51,885 bases of DNA from positions 1 to 51,885 of the forward strand of contig NZ_ARQE01000016.1 in assembly GCF_000382705.1 (NCBI RefSeq), given 5' to 3'. Of the stretch, positions 2,230-25,741 are shown in pieces (position 1 is the first letter of the stretch; every line of letters begins with the position of its first letter). This DNA comes from Aureimonas ureilytica DSM 18598 = NBRC 106430 (lineage in GTDB: Bacteria; Pseudomonadota; Alphaproteobacteria; Rhizobiales; Rhizobiaceae). The notes under the pieces are model-generated. The model ran no database searches. It saw nothing but the letters and a program-made list of their open reading frames with translations, and was not told where the DNA came from. A program made the translations under genes and the position numbers.

Positions 2230-3219
2230 TCATCGCTTGGGGATTATATTTACAAAGCCCTCATTCTCGTCCCGTCCGGCGAAGGCCTTCGGTCCGTATA
2301 TCTGGATGAGGTAAGTACGCAATTTGCCCTTTCTCATGTATTTCATGATACGGTATTTCTGAATGAGTAGCGGAAAGTCCTTGGCAAAGTCCGCCAATCC
2401 GTTCAGTGCCGCCAGCTGAACTTCGTAATTCGTCATCTGGGCGCGCAGCATGTTGCCGTAACGCTGCTTTTCGGCGGGGCGCAGGAGTCGGTCGCTGTCG
2501 ACCTTCTCCAAGATCGTGTACATAACCCGAAAGTAGGAGCCGAGCCGACTTTCATATCGCGAGTGAACCTTCGAGACGTAGAGCTTCGCAAGGGCTGCTC
2601 GAAGCGTGTCGGGGTCGTGCTGTATGAGGTCGAGCTGGTTGATGCGATTTCGCATCCAGAAACTATACTCTCTCGCGGCTGCACGTATAGCGTTGCGGCC
2701 GCGATACGACTTCTGATCCGGCTTGTCATCCATCTCCTGGGTCGAAGGGACGGATGTCACATAGCGTTTGCTGTAGGCGAACCTGATGCCCTCCCGTTCT
2801 TCACGTAGCATGTTCAGCATCTCGAAGAACGTCGCGTCGAAGCGTTGCCGGTGCTGGTCACGCTGTTGCTGTATCAAGGTCAGGACGACGGCCATGAAGC
2901 CGAATGCGGAAAGCAGGGCGTTCAATGCACCAAAGCTGTCGCCCCAAAGCCCCAGTCGCGTCGCGGTCCCTTCGGGGTCCGTCGATAAGAACGCCTTGGG
3001 TGTCCAGGCTGGGCAATCAAACGTGCCACAGATGGTTCCCACCAAATCAACGTAGAAGGGGTCGCGCAACCAATGTAGCCATATCGTTGCTACTGCGCCG
3101 CAGAACGCGAAGAACAGGATGTTGGTGGCGGTCTGCGATGACAGGAGGCGCTTCACTTTTCGAAGCGGAGAAAAGAGGCGAATCAAGTGGTGTTCTCCGA
3201 TTTGGCCGGCGAGGGTCAT
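2230..3219 (-). CDS. AbiC-like putative phage abortive-infection protein
   Basis: A 329-residue protein resembling the putative abortive infection family (putAbiC). It has a hydrophobic segment near residues 33-50 (NILFFAFCGAVATIWL) and a second near 95-115 (ALLSAFGFMAVVLTLI), followed directly by a charged QQQRDQHRQRFDATFFEML helix, which is the hallmark of this family. The rest is a long, helical, Arg/Lys-rich cytoplasmic domain. Family members are thought to act in phage exclusion, but the mechanism is not visible here. It is followed within about 450 bp by the toxin-antitoxin pair on the same strand, which supports a defence context. The assignment rests on recalled family pattern only. 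Confidence 0.72.
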   Translation of the reverse strand: MTLAGQIGEHHLIRLFSPLRKVKRLLSSQTATNILFFAFCGAVATIWLHWLRDPFYVDLVGTICGTFDCPAWTPKAFLSTDPEGTATRLGLWGDSFGALNALLSAFGFMAVVLTLIQQQRDQHRQRFDATFFEMLNMLREEREGIRFAYSKRYVTSVPSTQEMDDKPDQKSYRGRNAIRAAAREYSFWMRNRINQLDLIQHDPDTLRAALAKLYVSKVHSRYESRLGSYFRVMYTILEKVDSDRLLRPAEKQRYGNMLRAQMTNYEVQLAALNGLADFAKDFPLLIQKYRIMKYMRKGKLRTYLIQIYGPKAFAGRDENEGFVNIIPKR

Positions 3220-3672: not shown

Positions 3673-4770
3673 TCAGCTCTGTCTCGGCCGTACTCTGGTG
3701 AGGCCTAGTGCGAAAAGGCGCCACCCCATGCTCTCCGGAGAGACCTTGAACCGTCTTGCCAGTTCCGCGACGTCGCCAGTGTCAGCGAAGGCTTCTCGTA
3801 GCGATGTCTCGGGCATGAGCAGTTCGGCAGCCATGGCATTGGCCTCTCGTTCGATCGGATCCTGGCCTTCGAAGGATCGATTGAGAACTGGTTCGGTGAT
3901 CCCGTCGCCGATCCGGTCGCGGTGCAGTACATAATGTGCGACCTCGTGCGCGATCGTGAACCGTTGACGGTGAACGTGTTCACGACCATTCACGGAAATA
4001 AGGAAGCCCGCGACGCCGGTAGGGCGCCTCTGCCGGGTGATGCTTCCCGACGAATTCATGGTCATTCGCGTGTCGCGGGCGATTGAGATCCCAAGGTCCC
4101 TTGCGAGTCCCTCAACGTCCACCGGGACCCTTGCCACATGACGATCGATAGTCGCTTGGACGTTGACGGAAGTCTGGCTGACATTGAACAGACTCTTGCG
4201 AACCTCCGAACTCCTCACGAGTACCGAGGACACAATGGCCTCCACTGGCGCCGTCGTGGGAACATGGGATTCGCGCACCGCATCGCTAAGTGAACGAACT
4301 TCCCGTTCGCAAGCCTCTTCGATCACTTCGAGGGCTGTCTCGTTGCGTACGCCCTTTTCTTGCATCAGCTGTCGCAAGTATCGGGGGTCGTCGGCGATGC
4401 GTCGGATGACCTTGTCGTATTGGGGCGAGGGTACAACACGACCGCGCTCCCACCGGACCCAGGTCTTTGGTCCACTGTCGATGAGAGCTTCCATTTCCTC
4501 TTGCTGGAAGCCGTAACGAGCCCTGATCTCCTTCAACTCTTCGAGAGAAAGTAGGCCGTCGACTTGTCGAATGCGCTCGCCGACCGCCTGCATGTGCATG
4601 CTGGCCATCTCGCCCGGATGACTTATTGACCCGCAGGCAGCACAACGCATGTGGCGATCAGCGGGGATCATCATTTTCCTCCCCCGGACGGTCGTCACAA
4701 ATTCCGAAACCTCCTCGGACACATTTCCGCTGCCGCACTCAAGGCAAAAGATGGCTCGAACGTCAGTCAT
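3673..4770 (-). CDS. MqsA-like antitoxin fused to ImmA/IrrE metallopeptidase
   Basis: A 365-residue regulator. The N-terminus has a zinc-binding pair CLEC (residues 9-12) and CAAC (43-46) as in MqsA. Next comes the MqsA-type helix-turn-helix (about 75-130) with SLEELKEIRARYGFQ and WVRWERGRVVPSP. The C-terminal half is an ImmA/IrrE-type metallopeptidase: TIAHEVAHYVLH supplies the HEXXH zinc site and EREANAMAAELLMP the downstream conserved helix. It would bind the MqsR-like toxin encoded just upstream and repress the operon. The start at 4770 is chosen because AAGGAA precedes it and it overlaps the toxin stop by 8 bp. The peptidase domain is absent from classical MqsA and could degrade a regulator or the antitoxin itself. 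Confidence 0.8.
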   Translation of the reverse strand: MTDVRAIFCLECGSGNVSEEVSEFVTTVRGRKMMIPADRHMRCAACGSISHPGEMASMHMQAVGERIRQVDGLLSLEELKEIRARYGFQQEEMEALIDSGPKTWVRWERGRVVPSPQYDKVIRRIADDPRYLRQLMQEKGVRNETALEVIEEACEREVRSLSDAVRESHVPTTAPVEAIVSSVLVRSSEVRKSLFNVSQTSVNVQATIDRHVARVPVDVEGLARDLGISIARDTRMTMNSSGSITRQRRPTGVAGFLISVNGREHVHRQRFTIAHEVAHYVLHRDRIGDGITEPVLNRSFEGQDPIEREANAMAAELLMPETSLREAFADTGDVAELARRFKVSPESMGWRLFALGLTRVRPRQS

Positions 4771-5107
4771 CGTTATATTCCTTGAATGAGGTAATGACGA
4801 GGATATCGCGGTAAATGGCAAATTTTATGAATATCGTCGCTCTGCACGGAGCAACATAAGCTTGGTAATAATATGATGTCGTGCCTGGAGGGTACTTCTC
4901 AGTCGGCCTCGACTTGATGAAGGCGCAATCTTTACGTGAGATATGATCATTGAACTCTGATAGCCATTCGCAGATGTCCTCGTAATCCACGTCGAAACCG
5001 TAGATGTCCTGCAAAGGGTTCGGCATGATGTCGACATGCCGCCCTCGCGCTAGACGCTCCACCTCCAAAGGATCAAAGGTTGCCGTCTGTTGACTGCTGT
5101 AACTCAT
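4763..5107 (-). CDS. MqsR-like toxin (predicted mRNA interferase)
   Basis: A protein of about 114 residues placed before an MqsA-like antitoxin gene, the normal MqsR-MqsA order. The C-terminal half follows the MqsR pattern: a Tyr-rich strand (SYYYQAYVAPCRATIFIK) followed by RDILVITSFKE, comparable to the VYLKI and VLIVSFKE ending of E. coli MqsR. The middle (GFDVDYEDICEWLSEFN) matches the region before it. MqsR is a ribonuclease that cuts mRNA at GCU. That activity is inferred, because overall similarity is modest. A GTG start at 5122 is also possible. The 8-bp overlap with the antitoxin gene implies translational coupling. Confidence 0.72.
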   Translation of the reverse strand: MSYSSQQTATFDPLEVERLARGRHVDIMPNPLQDIYGFDVDYEDICEWLSEFNDHISRKDCAFIKSRPTEKYPPGTTSYYYQAYVAPCRATIFIKFAIYRDILVITSFKEYNDD

Positions 5108-5122
5108 GTAGCACCGTGACAC

Positions 5123-5486
5123 TCAAATGGCAATGGGTGGTTCAGATTTTTGCGCGCATGCTTAGGCTCGGTCCTGCTGTTCGTTACGTCGGCCGACAGA
5201 CGTGAGGCAGCATTTGAAGTCCGGGTGCCAACTTCCTGTTGGAATGGACGCTGCCCCACTCCGGGTGCCAGCTCAGCGAGCGGATCGCCTCGACCGTTGT
5301 GGACGTCGATAGCGGCCTCGAATCCTCGAGGTGCTCTATCGCGCGTCCGGCGTCACAGAGGCGTCAAACCGTGATGTGCAGCGAAGGGCGCATCTGATAA
5401 GCGGAGAAAATTGGAAGGGGTCCTGATCGTCGCGGTCCGCCGTCAGGCATCGAACTGCACGCTCGTGAAACGTCTGGAAAGTGTCG
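5123..5486. other. Intergenic region between divergent toxin and SARP genes
   Basis: About 360 bp that must hold the promoters of the toxin-antitoxin operon (minus) and of the SARP-type regulator (plus). A stretch around 5225-5275 repeats the words CCGGGTGCCA and CTGCCCCACTCCGGGTGCCA, with CCGGGTGCCA at about 5221 and 5258. I see no gene. Confidence 0.45.
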
Positions 5487-7451: not shown

Positions 7452-7494
7452 GCCGTCACGGGCTGCTCTTGGCCGTTGACGCCCGTGTGACGGC
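7452..7494 (+). terminator. Long stem-loop after the SARP gene
   Basis: GCCGTCAC-GGGC (7452-7463) pairs with GCCCGTGTGACGGC (7481-7494) with a two-base bulge and a 17-base loop. It lies 15 bp past the SARP stop and 48 bp before the small ORF. It could terminate the SARP transcript or form part of the small ORF leader. There is no U-tract, so a classical intrinsic terminator is not certain. Confidence 0.5.
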
Positions 7495-7508: not shown

Positions 7509-7537
7509 TTCCCCTTCTCGCTGTCGTGAAAGGGGAA
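7509..7537 (+). promoter_or_regulatory. Hairpin masking the ribosome binding site of the 48-aa ORF
   Basis: A perfect 8-bp inverted repeat, TTCCCCTT (7509-7516) and AAGGGGAA (7530-7537), with a 13-base loop. The 3' arm contains the AGGGGAA Shine-Dalgarno for the ATG at 7543, so folding would hide the start signal of the predicted precursor peptide. No ligand or protein binding site is evident. Confidence 0.6.
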
Positions 7538-7542
7538 AGCAC

Positions 7543-7689
7543 ATGAAGGCGAATGCGACGATCAAGGCGGCACCTGCCGCTTGCCCAATCCACCTTTCAG
7601 CCGAAGCCCGGGAAGCCATCGGCTCCTGTCCGGTCATTCCGCGCGACAACGGAATGGGCTCTGTCGTCCACGCAATGAAGTTTCGGTAG
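7543..7689 (+). CDS. Small ORF, candidate RiPP precursor peptide (48 aa)
   Basis: A 48-codon ORF with a strong Shine-Dalgarno (AGGGGAA, 5-6 bases before ATG), ending TAG at 7687-7689 only 10 bp before the YcaO start. The N-terminal half is Ala/Lys-rich and leader-like (begins MKANATIKAAPAACP). It continues through IHLSAEAREAIGSCPVIP and ends GSVVHAMKFR. It contains two CP dipeptides (residues 14-15 and 29-30), several Ser, and Gly residues in the last third. Position, size and tight spacing to YcaO and TfuA genes suggest the substrate of these enzymes. I recognise no named precursor family, and the modified residue cannot be told from sequence. Confidence 0.6.
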   Translation: MKANATIKAAPAACPIHLSAEAREAIGSCPVIPRDNGMGSVVHAMKFR

Positions 7690-7699
7690 GACCAGCGTC

Positions 7700-8974
7700 G
7701 TGGCATTGGGTTCCGGATGCTCTCCCACCGATCACATCAGGCTGCTCGAGGCCGACCTAGTCGGGACCGATCGCTTGGGGGGCGGCTACGACGATCGCGT
7801 CCGAAGGCCCTCCGAAACCCTCGCGAAACTCCGTCCGCTGTTTCCTGATTTGGGCATTACCAGGTTGGGGTTGCTGACCGGACTGGACGTCATCGGCATA
7901 CCGGTGGCGTTTGCGACCAGACCCAACAGCTTCACGCTGTCCGTTTTCCAAGGGAAGGGATTGGACATCGACGCTTCCATGGCGTCCGCGGCCATGGAAG
8001 CATTCGAGACGCGCATAGCCGAACTTCCTCCCGCGGGATTGCGCTTCGGCTCGGTCGCGGGAATGAGGGCTCTGGGCAGGCGGACGATACGTTTGGACAG
8101 GACCGCACGATGTGTCCCCTGGACGTTCGGAGAGGACGCGCCGATCCCTTGGTGCTTCGGTCTGGATCTCATGGGTGGGGTCGAGGTAGCGGTCCCGTGG
8201 TGGCTGGTGGGCGTCGACCATCGCGACCCCCGCCCTCGTGGCTTCGAGCAGTCCAGTGACGGGCTTTCCTCGGGGAACAGCCACGCCGAGGCTGTCTTGC
8301 ACGGCTTGTGCGAACTGATCGAAAGGGACGCCTGGACGCTGATGCGGCTCTGGTCGGCCTCGCGGGTGGCCCGAGCTCGCATTGATCCGGCACAATTCGG
8401 CGATCCGGTCATGCAGACGCTTGCCGCACGCATCGAACGTGCCGGGTTGGAACTGATCCTCTTGGACATGACCTCCGACATCGACGTTCCCGCATACAGT
8501 GCGGTCATCGTTCCCCAGCTGCGGGAAGGTGGTGCCGAGCACTCGCTGTCCGAGGTGTGTGGCGGTTCCGGCTGCCATCCCATCGCGTCCCGGGCGGCAA
8601 TCCGCGCCGTCGTCGAAGCTGCCCAGTCGCGTTTGACCGTCATCGCGGGAAGTCGAGACGACTTCTCCGCGATCCTTTACGAGCGCGGCAGCCTCGACGA
8701 TGATACCTTCGTCACGAACCTGCGTCACGCGCCGATGAGTGGCAGTCCTCGGTTGACGGTTGACCCGGACGCAACATTGCAGGGTCAGATCGCCGGCGTG
8801 CTCGAACGTCTCTCAAGGGCCGGAATCGACGAGGCGATAGCGGTCCCGATGGGAGATCCCAGTCTGGGACTTTCCGTTGTCAGGGTCGTGGTCCCGGGAC
8901 TTGAGGTCGACATCGGGGGCGAAAACGTCCAGCTCGGCATGCGGGCTGCCAGAGCGATGAGAGCCGCGGCATGA
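7700..8974 (+). CDS. YcaO-family ATP-dependent peptide-modifying enzyme
   Basis: A 424-residue YcaO domain protein. The family uses ATP to activate backbone amides of a ribosomal peptide, giving azolines or, with TfuA, thioamides. Visible family motifs are the ATP-binding segment SGNSHAEAVLHGLCELIERDA (about 192-212), with the conserved Glu residues, and GSGCHPIASRAAIRAVVEAAQSR (about 292-311). A GTG start at 7700 is chosen: AGGA lies 9 bases upstream and it directly follows the small ORF. There is no PxPxP tail, so it is not an obvious classical azoline former. The stop overlaps the TfuA start by 4 bp (ATGA), so the pair is translationally coupled. Confidence 0.9.
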   Translation: MALGSGCSPTDHIRLLEADLVGTDRLGGGYDDRVRRPSETLAKLRPLFPDLGITRLGLLTGLDVIGIPVAFATRPNSFTLSVFQGKGLDIDASMASAAMEAFETRIAELPPAGLRFGSVAGMRALGRRTIRLDRTARCVPWTFGEDAPIPWCFGLDLMGGVEVAVPWWLVGVDHRDPRPRGFEQSSDGLSSGNSHAEAVLHGLCELIERDAWTLMRLWSASRVARARIDPAQFGDPVMQTLAARIERAGLELILLDMTSDIDVPAYSAVIVPQLREGGAEHSLSEVCGGSGCHPIASRAAIRAVVEAAQSRLTVIAGSRDDFSAILYERGSLDDDTFVTNLRHAPMSGSPRLTVDPDATLQGQIAGVLERLSRAGIDEAIAVPMGDPSLGLSVVRVVVPGLEVDIGGENVQLGMRAARAMRAAA

Positions 8975-9849
8975 AGGTGTTATTCGTCGGTCCGAGCCTT
9001 CATGGCCAGCGCGAGCATCTCGCCTCACTTCATCCCGACTTCGAGCTGAGGCCTCCGGCGATACGCGGAGACGTGGCGATGGCGGTCGTCGACGGGGCGA
9101 CGGCGATAGGGCTCGTCGACGGATGCTTCGGAGCCTCTCAGTCGGTGTGGCACAAGGAGATCCTGTTCGCCCTCGAAAGGGGCGTTCCTGTCGGCGGTGG
9201 GGCGAGCATGGGCGCTCTCAGGGCTGCCGAGTGCGACGCTTTCGGAATGCAAGGGGTCGGAGGGATCTACGATGACTACAAAAGCGGGCGACTGAGCGAC
9301 GACGAGGAGGTCTGCCTGTCGCACGGGCCGGCCGAGATCGACTGGCTTCCCCTCAGCGTTCCGTGGGTGAACTTTTCTGCGACCATCGTGGAGGCAGCCG
9401 TCAGGGGTGACGTGACTCCCGATGAGCGCGACCTCCTGATGATCGCGGGTCACCGTTTGCATTACACGGAGCGGACGTTTCGCCGAGCGCTCCAAATGGC
9501 TGAGGCCATCAGCGAACGGCGCCGCTGCGATGTGCTGGAGCGGCTGCAAGCGACCGTCCGGGACCGGAAGCGGGAAGACGCCTGGAGAGTCGCAAGGTGG
9601 CTGTCCTCAACCAGCGGTCCGTTACACGTGCCTTGGACCTTGTCGAGAACGTCGCATTGGCAGTCGCTGGAACAGGATCTCGAGCGGATCCATGGCTTTC
9701 GAGCCGGCAGGTTCGCCGATCGGGGACAGCAGAACATGGCGGTCAAAGCTTGTGTCCGGGGAGGCACTGCTCGCCGATCGCCGGCGTCGCCTCGTCCAGA
9801 AGAGGTTTCTCGGACCTGGGTGACAACCGACACACCCCGGACTGGCTGA
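8971..9849 (+). CDS. TfuA-like protein, YcaO partner
   Basis: A 292-residue TfuA family protein. The core is clear: MKVLFVGPSLHG at the start, IGLVDGCFGASQSVWHKEIL around residues 46-65, then ALERGVPVGGGASMGALRA and GIYDDYKSGRLSDDEEV. TfuA was named from the trifolitoxin locus and is known to assist YcaO enzymes in peptide thioamidation, probably by delivering sulfur or a thiolated carrier. The 4-bp overlap with the YcaO gene supports one functional unit. The C-terminal 60 residues are Arg/Pro-rich and look unconserved. No transporter or protease follows, so export and leader removal would need genes elsewhere. Confidence 0.88.
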   Translation: MKVLFVGPSLHGQREHLASLHPDFELRPPAIRGDVAMAVVDGATAIGLVDGCFGASQSVWHKEILFALERGVPVGGGASMGALRAAECDAFGMQGVGGIYDDYKSGRLSDDEEVCLSHGPAEIDWLPLSVPWVNFSATIVEAAVRGDVTPDERDLLMIAGHRLHYTERTFRRALQMAEAISERRRCDVLERLQATVRDRKREDAWRVARWLSSTSGPLHVPWTLSRTSHWQSLEQDLERIHGFRAGRFADRGQQNMAVKACVRGGTARRSPASPRPEEVSRTWVTTDTPRTG

Positions 9850-10106: not shown

Positions 10107-10766
10107 TTGAGCAAACGTAACGACGTCGGGCAGCCTTGGTGGCACGAATGGAAGGATCTGAGCGATGGGGGGAAACTTGGTTCCAGACGACCGGAGGAGC
10201 TCGTGCGGGCGTGCCGTGCGCTCGATACACCTCTTCCGGAGCGGTTGAAGGGAGAGCTTCTCTCCCATTTGGCCGACCATGCTCGTTCCTATCTTCAAAA
10301 GAGGGTGCGCGAGGACTTGGTCGACGGTGGCCGCGAGGTCATCGAAGAGGTCATCGAGATCCTGACTGTTGCCGTTCTAACTCCCGGGACTGCAGACGGT
10401 ACGGGTTTCGAGACGGCTTTTCATAAAAAGCTCCGGCAACGGCTGGTTGATCGCATTCGAGCGTCCCAGCGTGTTGCCGCCGTCGTCGAGCAGGAAGCCG
10501 TCGATCCAGAAACGGGCGCGACGATCGAAGCTCCCGACCTTCGCCAACTGAGTCCCGAGGACATCGTCGTCATTCGGGATCTCATCGAGAAGTTGCCTGC
10601 GTTACATCGGAAGGCTTTCCAGCTTCACCGCCTCGGCTTCCACTACACGTCTTCCAATCCCGACGAGAGCATTGCCGTCATGTTGGGCAAATCCCCGAAG
10701 ACGGTGCAGAATTGGGTCGAGAGGGCGGAACGACAAATTCTCGAACTCCTGGAGTCAAAAAGATGA
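10107..10766 (+). CDS. Sigma-factor-like DNA-binding protein
   Basis: A 219-residue protein whose C-terminal 60 residues look like sigma-70 region 4 / ECF type: LIEKLPALHRKAFQLHRLG, then a spaced helix pair in DESIAVMLGKSPKTVQNWVERAERQIL with the recognition helix. The N-terminal two thirds are helical but have no clear region 2, so it may be a sigma-like regulator rather than a working sigma factor. A TTG start at 10107 is supported by AAGGGG at 10095-10100. The next gene overlaps by 4 bp (ATGA), so it heads an operon with the HTH protein and the helicase fusion. About 250 bp separate it from TfuA; I see no gene there and assume a promoter. Confidence 0.68.
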   Translation: MSKRNDVGQPWWHEWKDLSDGGKLGSRRPEELVRACRALDTPLPERLKGELLSHLADHARSYLQKRVREDLVDGGREVIEEVIEILTVAVLTPGTADGTGFETAFHKKLRQRLVDRIRASQRVAAVVEQEAVDPETGATIEAPDLRQLSPEDIVVIRDLIEKLPALHRKAFQLHRLGFHYTSSNPDESIAVMLGKSPKTVQNWVERAERQILELLESKR

Positions 10767-11311: not shown

Positions 11312-14300
11312 ATGGACATCTGGCGCGACATCCGGCTGAAGGCGCGCCAGCGCCACGAGTTGGCTGCTGGAAAGACCGCTTCGAACTTGGCGCGGGATTT
11401 GGTCCGGGCCGGATTGAAGGACGCCGGGCTGCAGGTGGACGAGTTCGATCCGGGGAGTGTCTTCGGACCGGGCGTTCTTGGAGCGTTGGAGCGCGAGGAC
11501 GGCTTTGTTCGCCTGGCTTCCGACCTCGCTGACGAGCAGAGACCCGTCGTCATCGCCCACGAACTGGGTCACTATTGGCTGCACGACGAGTCGGCGTACA
11601 TGATCCGCTCGACGGAGGCAGGCTTCGGCGGACAGCCGATGGAAACCGGGGCCAATCACGTCGTCGCCTACTCACCCCGCCAACGCCAGGAAGTCCAAGC
11701 GGACATATTCGCCCAAGAGTTTCTGCTACCCGCCGATCGGCTGCGGGAGAAATTCGTGGCGCACCAGAAAAAGCCATCCGAGATCGCGGCCGAAGCGGGT
11801 TTGCCGATCGGCTTCGTGAGGATGCAGGCAATACGAGCCTTGCTCCTTCCGCCGCTGGAAACCCCGGTTCCGTCCGAGAGCGGCGGGTCCCGTCAGCCTT
11901 TGGATCCCGAACAAGTGGAAGCCGCCGAATGGGACGAGCGGCCGCTGATCCTCGATGCCGGACCGGGAACGGGCAAGACAAGGACCCTGATCGCAAGGAT
12001 CGAGCACCTCCTTAAGAATGGAGTCCCGCCGTCGACGATCCTGGCTCTCACCTACTCCAACAAGGCTGCGGGAGAGATGATCGAGCGGGTGGAGACGGTG
12101 GACGCCGCTGCCTCCCCGCTCATCTGGGTCGGGACCTTCCACGCTTTCGGGCTCGAACTGTTGCGCCTGCACAGCGAGGCCGCCGCCCTGCCTCCCGGTT
12201 TCCAGTTGCTGGACGAGACAGACGGCCTCGCGCTTCTCGAAAGCATCTTGGCCGAACTGCCCCTGGTTCACTTCCAGAATCTCTGGGATCCGTCACTGGA
12301 ACTCAGGCCGATCCTGCGAGCCATCTCCCGGGCGAAGGACGAGATGGTTTCCGACGTCGAGTATATGGATGCTGCCGAAGCGGGCCTGCGCGTGGCGTCG
12401 ACCATCGAAGAGATCGAACGAGCCGAGAGGGCCGTCGAGGTGGGGCGGGTGTACCGTATTTATACCCAGGCCCTGAGAGACCGGGGTTGCGTCGATTTCG
12501 GCGATCTCGTTTACCTCGCGGCGAAGCTGCTCGGGTCGAGCCCGGAAATACGGGCTGCCGTACGGGAGAAGCACCGCCACATCCTGGTCGACGAGTATCA
12601 GGACGTGAACTTCGCCAGCACCTCGCTGCTGAAGCATCTTACTGAGGAAGGGAAGCGACTTTGGGTCGTCGCGGACCCTCGCCAGTCGATTTACCGCTTT
12701 CGCGGGGCGGCGCCGGGAAATGCGGCCGAATTCACGAGCCGCTATGCGGGAGCAGAGAGACGCCGGCTGAAGACGAACTACCGATCCTGCGAGTCCGTGG
12801 TGAGGGTGTTCGAGAAATACGGCGCCGATATCGTGGCCGCGCCCAAGCCCGCGGCGACCTGGAAGGCGCACCGTGGAAGGGTAGGCCACGCCGATCTCGT
12901 TCGGGCTCCCGACCTCCGATCGGAAGCCGTGGCGATGAGGGACAAAATCGAGCGACTGCGCAACGAGGGGATTCAGTATGGCGACCAAGCCATCCTCGCG
13001 AGCACCCACCTTTGCCTAGCTCGCTTCGGGAAGATGCTCGAGGATCTCGGCGTCCCCGTCCTCTACCTCGGCGACCTGTTCGAGCGGTCGGAGATCCGTG
13101 ACCTGTTGGCTCTCTGTTCCCTTGGAGCCGATCGATCGGGCGTCGGTCTCGTCCGCGTTGCACAGTTCCTTGAATACGGCGCAACCCGTGAGGACGCCGT
13201 CCGGATCGTCGCGTTCGCAAGGGAAACGGAACAAGATGTCCTGACGGTCTGCGCGAATGCCGCCGCTGTTCCCGGACTTTCGGCGCAGGGGATCGTCGGG
13301 CTCGGGCTTCTCGCCCGGCATCTGGCGGGCGTCGCCTGGAAGACAAGCTGCTGGCATCTCCTGACCACGTACCTGCTCGAAATCAGCGAGTATCTCCGCC
13401 CGCTCCTGAATGCAGGCGACGTTCGATCACAGCAGTCGCTTGTCGCCATATACCTGCTGCTGAAATTCTGCCGGGAACATGTCGACGGCAACAAAGGCGA
13501 GGGGGGACGGCTCAAGCTCCTCGATGACATCCGGCGGCTCGAGCGACTCGACGACGATCGCCAATTCCGAATTGTCCCGCCCGAAGCCGCAGGCATCGCG
13601 GCTGTCCGGATGATGACGGTCCATGCGTCGAAGGGGCTTGAGTTCCGGGCGGTTCATCTGCCCCAGGTCGCCACTCGATATGTGCCCGGGCGCACGCGCC
13701 CTTCCTCGTGTCCGCCGCCGCTTGGGTTGGAAAGGCTCGAGGTATCGGCTGCCGACCAAAAGGCCGAGGCAGAATGTCTTTTCTTCGTGGCCCTGTCGCG
13801 GGCGAGAGACGTGTTGGTGATCAGCAGCGCGGACAGGTACACGGAGAAGCAGACCGTCAATCCTTCGAAATTCCTGGATGGCCTTCTCGGTGTGCTGCCC
13901 CCGGCGCGCGCGGTGTCGAAGGCGAGCGCTCCGGGCAGACCGCCCGAGATCGTGCGTGTGGCGACCAAGGCTGAGCACGAGGAGCGGCACCTCGACATCT
14001 ACGCGAAGTGCCCAGCCAGATACCGATACGAAGTGATCGACGGCCTTCGCGGCCATGGCGACGACAGCGCGTTCCTGAAGTTCCATTCCTGCGTAAGGGC
14101 TACCGTCCGCTGGATATACGAGGAGCTCGGCGAGGGGCGCGAAGTCGACGTCCCGCGGGCCAAGGCACGGTTTGGGGAAGTCTGGGCCGCACGAGGTCCA
14201 GTGCATGCGTTCGAACCCGTCTATTTCGCCGAGGCCGTCAGAATGGTCGAGGGGGCGGTTGTAACGCGTGTGGAAGGAATCGAGGGTGACCGCGTCTGGA

Positions 14301-14668
14301 CCGCGCAGCTCGCGGGCAAGCGCATCGTGACCTCGCCGGACCGTGTCGTGGTGCAACCTTCCGGCGGCATCCTCGCCCAAAAGGTCAAGACTGGACGGCA
14401 GTCCAAAAGCGAGTCCTCGAAACCCGTCTGGGGGCTCATGCAACTGGCCGCGTCCCAGATGTATCCCGGAAGGCCAGTCCAGCTGGAGGCGTTCTATCCG
14501 GGCAGAGGCGCCCGGGTGGTGATGGCTGCTGCGGGCGACGCAAAGGCGGTCGCGAGCTATGTCGACAGCGTGGCTGGCATCGAGCGCGGTTTGTTCGAAC
14601 CCAAGGCCGGTCGGGACTGCCCGACGTGTCCATTTTATTTTGTCTGCACTTCGGAAGATTCTTTTTGA
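11312..14668 (+). CDS. ImmA/IrrE peptidase - UvrD-like helicase - RecB-like nuclease fusion
   Basis: An 1118-residue multidomain protein. Residues about 1-170 form an ImmA/IrrE-like metallopeptidase with VIAHELGHYWLHDE (HEXXH near 83) and QADIFAQEFLLP. Residues about 195-830 form a superfamily 1A helicase of the UvrD/Rep/PcrA type: Walker A GPGTGKTRTLIARI (near 217), DEYQD motif (near 426), DPRQSIYRFRGA, and MTVHASKGLEF (near 770). The last 250 residues resemble the RecB/Cas4-like PD-(D/E)XK region: KCPARYRYEV opening and CPTCPFYFVC (near 1103) as an iron-sulfur cysteine cluster. It probably unwinds and cuts DNA under control of the peptidase domain. It sits between the HTH gene and the ubiquitin-like genes. 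The nuclease domain is less certain than the other two. Confidence 0.85.
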   Translation: MDIWRDIRLKARQRHELAAGKTASNLARDLVRAGLKDAGLQVDEFDPGSVFGPGVLGALEREDGFVRLASDLADEQRPVVIAHELGHYWLHDESAYMIRSTEAGFGGQPMETGANHVVAYSPRQRQEVQADIFAQEFLLPADRLREKFVAHQKKPSEIAAEAGLPIGFVRMQAIRALLLPPLETPVPSESGGSRQPLDPEQVEAAEWDERPLILDAGPGTGKTRTLIARIEHLLKNGVPPSTILALTYSNKAAGEMIERVETVDAAASPLIWVGTFHAFGLELLRLHSEAAALPPGFQLLDETDGLALLESILAELPLVHFQNLWDPSLELRPILRAISRAKDEMVSDVEYMDAAEAGLRVASTIEEIERAERAVEVGRVYRIYTQALRDRGCVDFGDLVYLAAKLLGSSPEIRAAVREKHRHILVDEYQDVNFASTSLLKHLTEEGKRLWVVADPRQSIYRFRGAAPGNAAEFTSRYAGAERRRLKTNYRSCESVVRVFEKYGADIVAAPKPAATWKAHRGRVGHADLVRAPDLRSEAVAMRDKIERLRNEGIQYGDQAILASTHLCLARFGKMLEDLGVPVLYLGDLFERSEIRDLLALCSLGADRSGVGLVRVAQFLEYGATREDAVRIVAFARETEQDVLTVCANAAAVPGLSAQGIVGLGLLARHLAGVAWKTSCWHLLTTYLLEISEYLRPLLNAGDVRSQQSLVAIYLLLKFCREHVDGNKGEGGRLKLLDDIRRLERLDDDRQFRIVPPEAAGIAAVRMMTVHASKGLEFRAVHLPQVATRYVPGRTRPSSCPPPLGLERLEVSAADQKAEAECLFFVALSRARDVLVISSADRYTEKQTVNPSKFLDGLLGVLPPARAVSKASAPGRPPEIVRVATKAEHEERHLDIYAKCPARYRYEVIDGLRGHGDDSAFLKFHSCVRATVRWIYEELGEGREVDVPRAKARFGEVWAARGPVHAFEPVYFAEAVRMVEGAVVTRVEGIEGDRVWTAQLAGKRIVTSPDRVVVQPSGGILAQKVKTGRQSKSESSKPVWGLMQLAASQMYPGRPVQLEAFYPGRGARVVMAAAGDAKAVASYVDSVAGIERGLFEPKAGRDCPTCPFYFVCTSEDSF

Positions 14669-14756: not shown

Positions 14757-15623
14757 ATGACCCACTCTTCCAGTTCCCGCGTTCCCCGCTTCCAGGTTCT
14801 CGTCGGCGACGGTGACCTGAACTTTCGGGAAGTCGTCATTCCGGATCCCATCGTGACCGGGCGCCAGCTTCTCGACGCCGCAGGCGCACGGCCCGTCGAC
14901 GAGCATCTCGTTATCGCCGTCCTGCCGGACGGCGCGCTCGAGACGCTTCGTCAAGACGAACTGTTCGACCTCACCGGTCGCGGTGCCGAAAAGGTTCTGA
15001 TCTTCCGGACCGACCGCTCGTTCCGCTTCAAGGTCGACGACCGCGACCGCGAATGGGGCCCTTCCGTCATCAGCGGGCTGGCGCTCAAGGCGCTTGCGGG
15101 CATCGATGCAGCGACCCACGACGTCTACCAGGAGATCCGCGGCAAGGACGACCTTCTGATCCGCAACACCGATCTGGTCGACCTTTCCAAGCCGGGTGTC
15201 GAGAAGTTCTTCACCGCGATCGCCCAGACGACCGAAGGGCGCACGCTGTTCCTGCCGCCTCGCGACGCCGAGTATCTGGCGGCGCGCGGCATCGCTTACG
15301 AGGACGGCTCGGACGCGGGGCAAGCCGGGGTCATTCTGAAGGATTTCCCGCTTCCGCCGGAAAAGTTCTCGTCGGATAAGGGGGACATCCTGATCATCCT
15401 GCCGCCGGGCTATCCGGACAGCCCGCCTGACATGTTCTACTGCTCGCCTTGGCTGACGCTGAGGTCGTCCGGCGCGGAACCCCGTGCCGCTTCGGTGCAG
15501 CATTCGTTTCGTGGCGAGGTCTGGCAGCGCTGGTCCCGGCACAACACCGCCTGGCGGCCGGGCGTGGACGGCATCCAGACCATGGTGAAGCGCATCGAGC
15601 GCGCGCTCTCGGAAGCCGCTTAA
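14757..15623 (+). CDS. Two ubiquitin-like domains fused to a prokaryotic E2-like domain
   Basis: A 288-residue protein. Residues about 11-86 and 87-165 are two beta-grasp repeats of the multi-ubiquitin type, each containing a D(E)HxV..x..G..D.L pair and a DLTGRG- or DLSKPG-like turn before the last strand (AEKVLIF; VEKFFTAI). Residues about 175-285 match the prokaryotic E2 family E pattern: DILIILPPGYPDSPPDMFYC, then HSFRGEVWQRWSRHNTAWRPG. Together with the next genes it forms a ubiquitin-like conjugation system: modifier, E2, E1, isopeptidase. The modifier is fused in front of the E2, so it has no free C-terminal glycine; the protein ends SEAA. There is only one cysteine in the whole protein (FYC). 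The next gene starts 2 bp after the stop. Confidence 0.85.
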   Translation: MTHSSSSRVPRFQVLVGDGDLNFREVVIPDPIVTGRQLLDAAGARPVDEHLVIAVLPDGALETLRQDELFDLTGRGAEKVLIFRTDRSFRFKVDDRDREWGPSVISGLALKALAGIDAATHDVYQEIRGKDDLLIRNTDLVDLSKPGVEKFFTAIAQTTEGRTLFLPPRDAEYLAARGIAYEDGSDAGQAGVILKDFPLPPEKFSSDKGDILIILPPGYPDSPPDMFYCSPWLTLRSSGAEPRAASVQHSFRGEVWQRWSRHNTAWRPGVDGIQTMVKRIERALSEAA

Positions 15624-15624
15624 G

Positions 15625-17022
15625 ATGCTCGACATGATCCTGCTCGAGGCGCACGAGGAAGAACTCCGGTCCGTTCTGCGCGCGGAAGACGGCGTAGAGG
15701 CATCTGCTTACGTCATGTTCGGAACCGTGGACATTGCCGCCGATCCGTGGACGGGAGAGGCGCGAAAGCGCCTCGTCTCCCACCAAGTGATCCCCGTTCC
15801 GGACGAAGACCGCATCTCGGCGTCCGGCGTCCACGTCACGTGGTCCACCAGGTCGTTCGTGAAGCTTCTGAAAAAGGCCGAGGCTGGCGGAATGACCCTT
15901 GGCATCGTCCATACCCATCCGGGCAGCCATGCGTTCTTTTCGGATCAGGACGACCGCAACGAGGCGAACCTCCTGCAGATCGTGAGCAACCGGTCCGGGC
16001 CCGGGTACCGCTTCGCGAGCATGGTTTTGGGCGGTGACGGCACGATCTGCGCCAGAGTGTGGACGAGTCCCGGGGCTGTTGCCTCATGCCAGCGCGTGCT
16101 GGTGGCCGGGCGCAAACTGGTCCTTCACGGTGTTGCCCGAGGTGCGGTCGACGAGATGCTCGACAGGCAAGCGAGGCTGTTCGGTCCCGATTTCAATCCA
16201 GTGATGCGAACGTTTAAGATCGGCGTCGTCGGCTGTGGCGGAACAGGAAGCCCGGTCGCGATGCTGCTGGCTCGCCTTGGGGTCGGCCACCTGTTGCTGG
16301 TCGACGACGACACCATCGAACTGACGAACCTCAACCGTGTGCACGGCTCCAAGCGGAGCGACGTCGAGAACGGAGCGGCGAAAGTCGACGTCATCGCAAG
16401 GGAGATTAGAGACGCCGAACTCGGCGTCCATGTCGCTACCTTCAAGGGGTGGGTCGGCGACCGTGGGGTCCGAGACGCGCTCCGTTCGTGCGACGTCGTC
16501 TTCGGTTGCACCGACGACCATGACGGCCGACTGTTTCTCAACAGGTTGGCCTACTTCTACGGCATCTTCCTCATCGACATGGGGGTTCGCATCATCCCGG
16601 CGAGCAATGACAGGCCTTACGAAATGGCGGCACGGGTGAGTGTCGTCGGTCCTGCCGCTCCATGCCTTCTTTGCCGCGGGCTGGTGGATCCCATCGTTGC
16701 CCGCGACGAGGCGCTGAAGCGCGTCGATCCGGGTGAGTACGAACGCCGCAAGGAGGAGGCCTACGTGTCCGGCGGAGGGGATCCGGCGCCCGTCGTCGTC
16801 ACGTTCACGACCGAGACCGCGTCCATGGCGGTGAACGAGTTCCTGCAGGGACTGACCGCCTTCCGGGGGGCCGGGGGAATGAAGTTCGAACGTCGGCGCA
16901 GGTTCGACACCGTCGAGGACCGTTCGAGCACCTGTCTCCCAAGGGATGGATGCGAGATGTGTGCAAGCGCGGGGGTCTGGGGTCGCGGTGACGTCGAGCC
17001 CTTCCTCTATCGGATCGGGTGA
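15625..17022 (+). CDS. JAB isopeptidase - E1 (ThiF-like) fusion
   Basis: A 465-residue protein with two domains. The N-terminal 150 residues are a JAB/JAMM metallopeptidase: HTHPGSHAFFSDQD near residue 97 is a perfect HxHx7Sx2D zinc motif. Residues about 190-460 are a ThiF/E1-type adenylating domain: GVVGCGGTGSPVAMLLARLG (nucleotide site, near 200), LVDDDTIELTNLNR, and zinc cysteines CLLC and CEMC. It would adenylate the C-terminus of the ubiquitin-like protein and hand it to the E2, while the JAB domain trims precursors or removes the modifier. No cysteine lies between CLLC and the STC segment near the end, where the E1 crossover-loop nucleophile is expected; YVSGGGDPAP offers a serine. Confidence 0.88.
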   Translation: MLDMILLEAHEEELRSVLRAEDGVEASAYVMFGTVDIAADPWTGEARKRLVSHQVIPVPDEDRISASGVHVTWSTRSFVKLLKKAEAGGMTLGIVHTHPGSHAFFSDQDDRNEANLLQIVSNRSGPGYRFASMVLGGDGTICARVWTSPGAVASCQRVLVAGRKLVLHGVARGAVDEMLDRQARLFGPDFNPVMRTFKIGVVGCGGTGSPVAMLLARLGVGHLLLVDDDTIELTNLNRVHGSKRSDVENGAAKVDVIAREIRDAELGVHVATFKGWVGDRGVRDALRSCDVVFGCTDDHDGRLFLNRLAYFYGIFLIDMGVRIIPASNDRPYEMAARVSVVGPAAPCLLCRGLVDPIVARDEALKRVDPGEYERRKEEAYVSGGGDPAPVVVTFTTETASMAVNEFLQGLTAFRGAGGMKFERRRRFDTVEDRSSTCLPRDGCEMCASAGVWGRGDVEPFLYRIG

Positions 17023-21881: not shown

Positions 21882-22646
21882 TCAAGGGCAACGCCTGGTG
21901 TCGGCATCTACTTCCAAGCGCAGTCCCAGCCTAGCCTCGAGATGTCCGAAGTTCAGGATTGGGTCGTGCTCGACGAAATCGACGGCCGGGGTTGCCGATG
22001 CAAGCTCCAGCACGCTGCGGCGCAGATCGTGCGGGTCGGGATCAAACGTGCGCCGCGTGAGATTGCGGATCTCTTCCATGATCCGGTCGGTATCGTAATC
22101 CAAGGCTTCGAGAACGGCATCGAACCGCTCGGTGCCGACGACCCCCGCCAGGTTGGAAGGCCGGATGAGACCCGCACCGAGACAAGCGTGGATGTCGTAG
22201 AGGTCCCGGCCTTTCACGGCACCGGGACTGGTTGCCCGGTAGACGAGCTTCTTTGTTACGACCTCCTCGGGATGCTCCAAGCATAGGTCGACGCCTTGGA
22301 CGCGTACCGGAATGCCGGAATGAGGGGTCAGCGGCGCGGCGGCGAGCAGGTCGATCTCGCCAATGCCGTCCCACACCAACTTCACGAAGTTGCCGGGATG
22401 CCGAACGTCGCGGGTGAGGCTGCGCGGCAGCCCGCTCGCCATCAACCTTTGCAGGTGGCCGGCGCGCGGAGCTGGGTCGCCGACGAAGAGATCGAGGTCG
22501 AAGGACAGGCGGTGGTCGATGAAGAACGTCAACGACGTTCCGCCCCCGACGCGGAGCGTCGAACCCTCCTTAAATCGGTAATGGTCGAGGATGGCCTCGG
22601 CATCACGGAGCAGTGCCGGCCATCTCTCTGACGTTTCGGTTTCCAT
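21882..22646 (-). CDS. AbiEii-like nucleotidyltransferase (putative toxin)
   Basis: A protein of about 254 residues resembling the AbiEii/AbiGii toxin family and related type IV toxin-antitoxin nucleotidyltransferases. It has LRVGGGTSLTFFIDHRLSFD (GGTSL.. R-S-D-D type pocket; FDLDLFVGD follows) and EIDLLAAAPL, then the conserved HPEEVVTKKLVYR and VKGRDLYDIHA pieces. Such proteins add nucleotides to tRNA or other acceptors and arrest growth. Start 22646 is inside the end of the preceding ORF (44-bp overlap). No AbiEi-type antitoxin is recognisable; the overlapping 115-residue ORF upstream occupies that place. Confidence 0.75.
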   Translation of the reverse strand: METETSERWPALLRDAEAILDHYRFKEGSTLRVGGGTSLTFFIDHRLSFDLDLFVGDPAPRAGHLQRLMASGLPRSLTRDVRHPGNFVKLVWDGIGEIDLLAAAPLTPHSGIPVRVQGVDLCLEHPEEVVTKKLVYRATSPGAVKGRDLYDIHACLGAGLIRPSNLAGVVGTERFDAVLEALDYDTDRIMEEIRNLTRRTFDPDPHDLRRSVLELASATPAVDFVEHDPILNFGHLEARLGLRLEVDADTRRCP

Positions 22647-22950
22647 GTCGGCTGGCCCTGTCCCGAATCGTGGCGACGTTGTCGCCGCTTCGTGCGCCCA
22701 CGTTGTCCGCGAGTTCGGCAAGGAACCGATAGCCCAGTGCCGATCGCCTGATGGCCGAAAAAAGGAGGGATGGATCGCTCCCCTCGAGGAGCGTTCGAAC
22801 GATGAAGCGGTCGTGGTCGCTGCCGCGCTCTCCGGCGATCACGCCGTAGACGGTGGCAAGCGTGGAGCCACCGCGTCCATAGGGGGTCCAAGCGTTCACG
22901 ATCAGGGAACGCCAAGCCTCGGGAACGTCGACTTCTTCGATACGGCTCAT
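22603..22950 (-). CDS. Unrecognised 115-aa protein, possible antitoxin partner
   Basis: A 115-residue ORF directly before and overlapping the AbiEii-like gene, in the position an antitoxin would occupy. Readable parts include EAWRSLIVNAWTPYGRGGST and FSAIRRSALGYRFLAELADN. I do not recognise a family. The overlaps at both ends (4 bp with the upstream small ORF, 44 bp with the toxin) suggest coupled translation. The coding nature is likely from the protein-like composition and the overlaps. Confidence 0.6.
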   Translation of the reverse strand: MSRIEEVDVPEAWRSLIVNAWTPYGRGGSTLATVYGVIAGERGSDHDRFIVRTLLEGSDPSLLFSAIRRSALGYRFLAELADNVGARSGDNVATIRDRASRHGNRNVREMAGTAP

Positions 22951-24610: not shown

Positions 24611-25645
24611 CTACGGCATCGCCTCGTCCGGTACAGGGATCGCCAAAGCGACCTGTACACCTCCGTCCTGCCAGTCGACCCGCAGTTCCGCGCCGAGCTG
24701 CGTCGCCAGCGCATCGAGCATGCGGAGACCGACGCCGGAGCGCATGGGAGCTTCGATGGCGCGGAAACACCGCTCGTGCCACTCCAGGACGACGCACCCG
24801 CCATCATTACGCCAAGTCACGTCCAGTCCGCCCGTCGGTTCCGACAAGGCGCCGTGACGAAGGGCATTGGACGTAAGCTCGTGGAGCGCGAGGGCCAGCG
24901 GCTGCACGAGTTGGGACTGGATCCGGATCGGGTCGCCATAGGTCCAGATCTGTCGCTTTGCGGCCGCTGGAAGACTTCCCGCAACGAGGGCCGATAAATC
25001 CACGTGCTGCCACCGCGACTCCGCAAGTAGACGGTGTGCCGAGGCGAGGGCCTGAACGCGTCCGCGGATTGCGGCAGCGAAACTCTCGGGATTCTTAGCG
25101 TCGCCGAGGCTGACGAAGCTTTGCACCAGAGCGAGCGCGTTCATGGCTCGATGGTCGACCTCCTTCAGAAGTAGGTGCTCGGCCTGCTCGAGGCGCTCGG
25201 CCCGGTGCAGGGCGGTGACATCCTTCTGGGAAGCGAAGTAGTAGATCAGCTCGCCGGCCTCGTTCGTCACGCGGCTAACGGCAAGCTGGTTCCGGAACGT
25301 GCTGCCGTCCCGGCGGTAGTTAAGCACCTCTAGCTCGAAATGCTCTGCCTCCGATCCGAGTGCCGCGCGTATTGCGTCGACCTCTGCCGGGTCGGTCTTT
25401 GGGCCTTGAAGGAAGCGGCAGTTTTTTCCGATGACCTCGGCGGCGGTGTAGCCGGTCAGATCGAGGAACGCGGTGTTGGCCATGACGATGGGATTGTCGG
25501 GCTGCTGCGGGTCGGTGATGATCATCGGCATGCAGGTGCGCTCAACTGCGACGAGGGCTAGTTCCCTTCGATTAGCGAGCACGCCACTGTCGACTGCCAC
25601 TCGATCGTCACCGACGAACGAGCGTCCGTTCTCTGTCTCGTCCAT
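24611..25645 (-). CDS. LOV-domain blue-light histidine kinase (HWE/HisKA_2 type)
   Basis: A 344-residue soluble sensor kinase. Residues about 25-145 are a LOV/PAS domain with the flavin-adduct motif GKNCRFLQG; the cysteine is residue 76. Next is the phosphoacceptor box LLKEVDHRAMNALALVQSF with His165, then an ATPase domain with ALHELTSNALRHGALS (N box) and GVGLRMLDALATQLGAE. The HRxxN-type box and short ATPase place it in the HWE/HisKA_2 group that controls the general stress response in alphaproteobacteria. ATG at 25645 has GGAG just upstream. Blue light would form a Cys-FMN adduct and change kinase activity; the output regulator is not adjacent. Confidence 0.9.
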   Translation of the reverse strand: MDETENGRSFVGDDRVAVDSGVLANRRELALVAVERTCMPMIITDPQQPDNPIVMANTAFLDLTGYTAAEVIGKNCRFLQGPKTDPAEVDAIRAALGSEAEHFELEVLNYRRDGSTFRNQLAVSRVTNEAGELIYYFASQKDVTALHRAERLEQAEHLLLKEVDHRAMNALALVQSFVSLGDAKNPESFAAAIRGRVQALASAHRLLAESRWQHVDLSALVAGSLPAAAKRQIWTYGDPIRIQSQLVQPLALALHELTSNALRHGALSEPTGGLDVTWRNDGGCVVLEWHERCFRAIEAPMRSGVGLRMLDALATQLGAELRVDWQDGGVQVALAIPVPDEAMP

Positions 25646-25741
25646 CGCCACTCCAGCTGGCTACGCATAAAAACAGTACGGCCGCTGAGCGACCAACTCC
25701 GAAACCGTAGATCCGGTTCATACCGAGCCGCCGGACGGTTG

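Follow-up and report, generated by a model that had tools for sequence, protein, structure and literature searches.

A conserved 48-residue peptide gene ahead of a YcaO-TfuA pair in Aureimonas ureilytica, and a candidate regulated thioamidation cassette

Contig NZ_ARQE01000016.1 of Aureimonas ureilytica DSM 18598 = NBRC 106430 (51,885 nucleotides, analysed whole and called the window below; the genome comprises 5,087,183 bases in 44 contigs) encodes on its plus strand, in this order, a 651-amino-acid (aa) regulator, a 48-aa peptide, a YcaO protein and a TfuA protein (Table 1). The initial annotation of this stretch had described an unannotated small open reading frame (ORF) with a strong ribosome-binding site in front of a YcaO-TfuA pair, and had proposed it as the precursor of a thioamide-type ribosomally synthesized and post-translationally modified peptide (RiPP). 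The layout is as described: the ribosome-binding site ends 3 bases 5' of the ATG, a 10-bp gap separates the stop codon of the ORF from the GTG of YcaO, YcaO and TfuA overlap by 4 bp, and Pfam confirms the identity of both enzymes. Beyond that description, we found the regulator gene, candidate operators before it and before the peptide, and a second peptide family in relatives.

Comparison with Aureimonas phyllosphaerae, whose YcaO is 87% identical to that of the window, identified the 48-aa ORF as a gene under purifying selection in its annotated frame only: synonymous divergence (dS) was 0.351 and nonsynonymous divergence (dN) 0.028, giving a dN/dS of ~0.08, with 10 of the 13 base differences at third codon positions and dN above dS in the remaining two frames. 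The closest named relatives by YcaO are Aureimonas, and A. endophytica (YcaO 55%) has a 51-aa ORF at the same position with mainly the C-terminus in common. A protein search with the single 48-mer returned only itself, the method requiring exact shared words; a profile of 17 peptides retrieved 57 proteins, 56 besides the query, with E-values down to 5.7e-20, and those with a listed organism came from Rhizobium, Neorhizobium and Aureimonas. Among them, a Neorhizobium protein is nearly identical to the peptide before YcaO at one of the loci examined here (L026), and one family member (P0177) is without the C-terminus. The initial annotation recognised no known precursor family for the peptide, and neither Pfam nor NCBIfam returned a family for the 48-mer; the alignment of its relatives (type A, alignment A1) gave no convincing match in Pfam either. 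The term 'unannotated' holds only in part, as orthologues from Rhizobium and A. endophytica are public as 'hypothetical protein'. Such a protein, of 47 aa, lies between a BTAD regulator and YcaO in R. etli CFN 42 (replicon p42e), R. johnstonii 3841 (pRL11) and Rhizobium sp. NXC14.

The window YcaO matched 110 of 394 Rhizobiaceae genomes, its own included, at E<=1e-30. These matches fell in 129 places, and all 128 other than its own were examined, together with 14 of 300 plasmid records, hand-chosen for spread, and two named genomes. Counted with models that were built from alignments A2 and A3 and share members with the loci they find, the peptide upstream of YcaO was of type A at 8 of the 128 genome places, of a second type, B, at 76, and of neither type at 44; B was assigned to L032, L037 and L041 from reading stop to stop, and three (L094, L125, L159) of the 48 loci with neither type had fewer than 2,500 bases upstream. 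Besides the window there are thus 17 type A loci, from 8 genome places, the 2 named genomes and 7 plasmids. The initial annotation had staked its proposal on conservation of the small ORF beside other YcaO-TfuA pairs, and such conservation is what we found: a family peptide precedes YcaO at all 18 type A loci, window included, and TfuA follows at 17/17 of the others by tblastn. The spacing between peptide and YcaO is variable, the peptide ending well over 200 bp before YcaO at L026. When the peptide profile was run on 397 genomes of the order, all 5 strong matches (E<=5e-19) out of 13 lay beside YcaO; the remaining 8, with E-values of 0.001-0.01 and frame lengths between 56 and 1658 aa, were judged to be chance, and no convincing orphan copy away from YcaO was found in these genomes.

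Peptide type also follows the phylogeny of the enzyme. On a FastTree phylogeny of YcaO with 125 tips including the window (the last 19 loci are not in the tree, and L014, with an open frame of fewer than 300 residues counted from the match start, was left out), type A loci form one clade of 17 tips with support 1.0, and 70 B tips fall in one clade (0.995) along with 4 tips then unassigned, 3 of which proved to be B. The peptide type therefore switches with the YcaO lineage, as expected of an enzyme and its substrate. Purifying selection, retention before YcaO and co-variation with the YcaO clade all strengthen the small ORF's candidacy as a substrate, and we conclude that the peptide, which is conserved in related bacteria associated with plants, is very probably the substrate of the YcaO-TfuA enzymes.

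Family B peptides carry the motif [AS]KVVVIGxxGExGLWxADLxAGTV...KGVDxAVAxSSA..SGx[FYMH]xDG and are mostly 65-90 aa long (at most ~140), with two consecutive B genes at some loci. Homology of families A and B is unsupported (hhalign P 0.73), and 30 family B members (A2) had no convincing Pfam or NCBIfam match, only single weak ones of E 0.02-0.08. Tandem C-terminal repeats were detected in 11 of 87 B peptides and in 0 of 261 shuffled sequences, at a score threshold that is arbitrary. The repeat units are of 7, 13 or 19 residues (at L027, L028, L030, L031, L036, L047, L077, L082, L091, L126 and L157), examples being GGYMD-AG-GGYMD-AD-GGYMD, FSGKLE four times, and RAFSFDGRSDPSD several times. By their sequence, these peptides resemble candidate multi-core RiPP precursors, and the repeats indicate that B peptides are probably modified at the C-terminus. 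From the shared position and enzymes, we infer by analogy that the same may hold for type A.

Other genes occur in this slot as well. A third type of ~140-160 aa, with an FxxIGKKxxGVLFxRTxPLR-like motif, is found at L129 and L131-L133, with look-alikes at L158 and L160, the latter having two copies; at L156 the regulator frame contains an apparently broken B gene. Separately, a YcaO-TfuA locus of another sort occurs at 1172-3244 of L017, from Rhizobium beringeri; a Nif11-like precursor is annotated there, and the locus has a second YcaO.

Within type A, the alignments (A1, A3) show that the N-terminus varies and is followed by a conserved leader-like segment (R[FL]SAAAxAxLKQ in relatives); a linker that also varies then leads to a conserved C-terminus, which in Aureimonas and Rhizobium relatives reads N-[AG]-x5-H-A-x2-[FY]-[RQ]. 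Across 30 distinct 17-residue tails, Asn at -13, Ala/Gly at -12, Phe/Tyr at -2 and Arg/Gln at -1 are present in 30/30, and His at -6 and Ala at -5 in 29/30. No column of Cys, Ser or Thr is conserved in these 17 residues, the best reaching 18/30 at -7, so the tails lack the conserved core of such residues by which azoline-forming systems (linear azol(in)e-containing peptides/thiazole/oxazole-modified microcins, LAP/TOMM) are recognised. The window peptide itself has Cys at 14 and 29 and Ser at 19, 28 and 40; both Cys recur in A. phyllosphaerae and are absent from the other 29 rows of A3. An APR-containing repeated core of the thiovarsolin type is absent from the window peptide and the aligned type A relatives.

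YcaO and TfuA have one match each in the whole genome. YcaO matches PF02624 over the full profile, and its residues 33-404 align with MJ1094 (6pe3), its best match among solved chains, which we take to be the thioamidating YcaO of M. jannaschii; 6pe3 and 6xp8, the chain matched by TfuA, are presumably members of the McrA thioamidation pair. The McrA thioamidation models TIGR03266 and NF033432 score highest among the NCBIfam matches, below their cut-offs (178 vs 365 and 167.7 vs 235.2 bits). The uL16-type model of E. coli YcaO (NF040716) does not reach its cut-off, with 12.2 vs 700 bits, and the SagD-family model TIGR03604 stays under half of its own (107.1 vs 219.25 bits). Since MJ1094 is the best match, the SagD-type score is low and the peptide tail is without a conserved side-chain nucleophile, backbone thioamidation is our best guess and appears to fit better than azoline formation. 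Two genome matches to the ThiS family, in frames of 87 and 474 aa, could supply the sulfur carrier.

The regulator gene shows a similarly strict association with the peptide. By Pfam its product has TPR_2 and TPR_19 above cut-off, and its orthologues in R. etli CFN 42, R. johnstonii 3841 and Rhizobium sp. NXC14 are annotated 'BTAD domain-containing putative transcriptional regulator'. A regulator was found upstream (tblastn) at 91 of the 128 genome places, namely 8 A, 76 B and 7 with neither peptide, and hence at 84/84 places with an A or B peptide, while the 37 regulator-less places included 0 A and 0 B; a control search with the reversed sequence gave 0 matches. Six of the 7 regulator-positive loci with neither peptide have an actual or apparent gene of the third type, and one has the broken B gene.

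A direct repeat of the form T-N-ACG-N6-T-R-AC-R, with an 11-bp start-to-start distance, precedes the peptide at 18/18 type A loci, window included. The box starts 63-81 bp before the start codon in the 17 loci measured (16 and the window; L022 left out), and in shuffled sequences it occurs at most 0.006 times per 150 bp. Its strict form, TGACGCCNNTGTGACG, has two perfect sites in the 5.09-Mb genome, the two candidate operators of Table 1, with three single-mismatch sites elsewhere; the backwards pattern has none. The minus-strand box before the regulator is the same in A. phyllosphaerae, and one lies at a like distance before the regulator at L131, L132, L133 and L158, loci of the third gene type. 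Direct repeats spaced 11 or 22 bp apart are given as the sites of Streptomyces antibiotic regulatory proteins (SARPs) (PMC10936776), so the regulator resembles a SARP both in its likely target and, with a BTAD score just under the cut-off, in its domain. On sequence grounds we regard the boxes as candidate operators at which the regulator may bind.

A further box occurs at the tfuA end of 14 of the 17 other type A loci and of 16 of 79 B loci, where 6.5 boxes would be expected in whole loci over both strands. The 16 B loci resemble type A Rhizobium in carrying it within a 350-bp slot that follows YcaO. At annotated Rhizobium loci this box overlaps the tfuA stop and starts 78-80 bp before a gene for a conserved 88-aa protein (L004 8071-8337, L005 7073-7339 and others) with no Pfam match; the box carries less weight because it is partly inside coding sequence. 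No copy of the 88-aa gene turned up in the window (best E 9.3), in A. phyllosphaerae or in A. endophytica. No sigma-70 consensus promoter was found on the plus strand of the window between 7300 and 10200.

Table 1. Genes and candidate elements of the cassette, in window coordinates
Feature	Position	Strand	Basis or remark
Candidate operator of regulator gene, TGACGCCTCTGTGACG, 11-bp-spaced direct repeat	5351..5366	-	~115 bp before regulator start
BTAD/TPR transcriptional regulator (SARP-like), 651 aa	5481..7436	+	Pfam, orthologue annotation; start codon as listed mechanically
Candidate operator of peptide operon, TGACGCCCGTGTGACG, 11-bp-spaced direct repeat	7477..7492	+	51-66 bp before ATG
Ribosome-binding site, AAGGGGAAAG	7530..7539	+	sequence
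48-aa candidate precursor peptide, type A family	7543..7689	+	ATG start; alignments, conservation, dN/dS
Conserved leader-like segment, HLSAEAREAIGS, counterpart of the motif in relatives	7591..7626	+	alignments A1, A3
Conserved C-terminal segment, NGMGSVVHAMKFR, presumed core, last 13 residues	7648..7686	+	30 distinct family tails
YcaO, 424 aa	7700..8974	+	GTG start; PF02624 E 3.1e-65; aligns with MJ1094 (6pe3) E 3.6e-26
TfuA, 292 aa	8971..9849	+	PF07812 E 9.9e-39; aligns with TfuA-domain chain 6xp8 E 9.9e-27

The initial annotation had noted that no transporter or protease lies nearby, and our Pfam scan agrees, with no RiPP-type exporter or leader peptidase found among the genes scanned between 2230 and 17022; the M78 and JAB domains in this interval belong to other genes. 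The gene of an M78-UvrD-PDDEXK protein (11312-14668) lies just upstream of a bacterial ubiquitin-like conjugation operon (14757-17022), made up of a multiubiquitin-E2 fusion (14757-15623; PF14452 in two stretches, PF14462) and a JAB-ThiF (E1) fusion (15625-17022). A sigma-like gene (10107-10766) also lies upstream of that operon. Defence-like genes surround the cassette: putAbiC (2230-3219), an MqsA/M78 regulator with a capP-like score (3673-4821) and AbiEii (21882-22721). Farther along, a phytochrome-type HWE histidine kinase with a receiver domain (26640-29288) is found near a PAS-HWE kinase (24611-25651).

Taken together, we give a probability of roughly three in four that the four genes form a self-contained, self-regulated RiPP cassette making a thioamidated peptide, and we infer its biochemical steps as follows. 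The BTAD/TPR regulator would bind the 11-bp-spaced repeats that precede its own gene and the peptide operon and, once bound, would switch on coupled synthesis of peptide, YcaO and TfuA. YcaO would recognise the conserved leader-like stretch and activate a backbone amide with ATP, and TfuA would supply sulfide from a thiocarboxylated ThiS-type carrier, such that one or more amides in the C-terminal segment NGMGSVVHAMKFR may become thioamides, as suggested by the enzyme families. This follows the general scheme given, in the parts that bear on it, by PMC6511847 and PMC13063428, where YcaO activates the backbone amide with ATP and TfuA with a thiocarboxylated carrier delivers the sulfide. Because no protease or exporter adjoins the operon, trimming might fall to housekeeping peptidases, a route considered plausible for thiovarsolin; alternatively, the modified product might remain intracellular. 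In our judgement, the near-invariant tail favours a fixed partner, inside or outside the cell, over an arms-race antibiotic.

Several observations weigh against a regulated thioamidation cassette of this kind. Type A peptides have no repeats, and no leader/core cleavage site or motif is evident. An AlphaFold model of the 48-mer, with short helices at 20-26 and 39-46, has a mean predicted local distance difference test score (pLDDT) of 62 and was left unused at this low confidence, so that the division into leader and core relies solely on conservation. We also judge so conserved a C-terminus to be unusual for an antibiotic RiPP. Of the 76 B genome places, 6 gave no downstream tblastn match to TfuA; a query of B type recovered it at L078, leaving 5 (L062, L063, L072, L080, L086). 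L076, though within the B clade of the YcaO tree, lacks both the B gene and the regulator. On the regulatory side, the BTAD match (PF03704, E 0.0011) scores 19.8 vs a cut-off of 22.1 bits, no convincing -10 element was seen by eye at the SARP distance of 8 bp after the 3' repeat, and most B loci are without the box, which 16 of 79 have at the tfuA end and none shortly before the peptide.

The best surviving alternative, which we consider unlikely, holds that the small protein is a partner (adaptor, stabiliser or regulator) of the YcaO-TfuA pair, which would thioamidate another cellular protein, in the manner of the McrA and uL16 systems. A strongly conserved peptide C-terminus and the rank of the McrA thioamidation models would suit such a role, and YcaO enzymes that modify whole proteins exist, according to the relevant part of PMC13063428. 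Both McrA models, however, are far below their cut-offs, and two unrelated small proteins share the slot, some of the B type with repeated C-termini, which is expected of substrates and not of adaptors. An extension of the cassette reading, speculative and in our view improbable, is that the modified peptide may stay inside the cell, where its thioamidated C-terminal segment would bind as a ligand to the TPR part of the cassette's regulator. The cassette would then be a RiPP-run signalling circuit whose switch depends on a sulfur donor; an almost invariant C-terminus, no exporter or protease close by and the strict pairing of regulator and peptide genes fit this idea.

Less probable still is that YcaO acts on the peptide to give an azoline, amidine or other non-thioamide modification, as TfuA lies downstream at every other type A locus, the Pfam matches and annotation tables examined show neither a dehydrogenase nor an E1-like gene next to the operon, and the E1-JAB gene at 15625 is part of the ubiquitin-like operon. 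Other YcaOs do form such rings, as the portion of PMC13063428 on them describes, and the window peptide has Cys and Ser residues that could in principle be drawn on, yet among the rows of A3 its two Cys are shared with A. phyllosphaerae only, and no tail column of Cys, Ser or Thr is kept. Finally, a chance frame or translational-coupling leader whose product has no role is hardly credible given the dN/dS, the third-position changes, the profile homologues and the co-variation with YcaO, common though short ORFs are before genes and close as this one ends to YcaO.

The probable substrate of the proposed thioamidation cassette is now a concrete, short and testable gene, and the second family marks its likely core by repeats. 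The regulator and the operator candidates suggest a route to switching the cluster on, and two familiar rhizobia, R. etli CFN 42 and R. johnstonii 3841, carry the cassette. YcaO-TfuA clusters as such have been mined before: a 2021 survey with precursor prediction (PMC8120280) reports in its main text such clusters in Proteobacteria, which account for 70% of those mined, with more than 500 in Rhizobium and dominant 'TfuA-related' families in Rhizobium and Agrobacterium. The precursors that it names include CCRG-2, berninamycin-like and Nif11-like ones, and it states that all known thioamidated RiPPs of TfuA-YcaO pairs come from Actinobacteria. Its 'TfuA-related' clusters very likely coincide, in broad terms, with the loci studied here. 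The portion of its text considered here describes no peptide with this C-terminus, no peptide-YcaO co-variation and no regulator link, and the A and B peptides may already be in its supplementary precursor networks. Two genome papers merely list a 'TfuA-related' region or toxin cluster, as far as their relevant passages go (PMC7356062, PMC12993520). Judging from titles and abstracts, and from part of PMC8120280, the A and B families, their co-variation with YcaO, the regulator link and the operator candidates appear to be new.

The McrA thioamidation pair of methanogens (YcaO-TfuA) resembles the window enzymes over the catalytic domains; its substrate is a protein, and the window enzymes miss the curated equivalog cut-offs. 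Closer in organisation, by the main account in PMC6511847, is the thiovarsolin cluster of Streptomyces varsoviensis, where varA, varY and varT suffice for thiovarsolin B and the cluster is without a specific protease. Like the window, it has precursor, YcaO and TfuA as a minimal set, and its precursors have repeats as do some family B relatives. On the same account the window cassette differs in being alphaproteobacterial, in having a BTAD/TPR regulator built in and no APR repeat core, and in showing no heme oxygenase, ATP-grasp ligase or amidinotransferase among the scanned neighbours. For the regulator, the nearest parallels are Streptomyces SARPs such as AfsR, which according to PMC10936776 have BTAD and TPR regions and direct repeats as target sites: the regulator has TPR matches, a BTAD match that scores below cut-off and candidate 11-bp-spaced repeats, and no NB-ARC/NOD part by Pfam.

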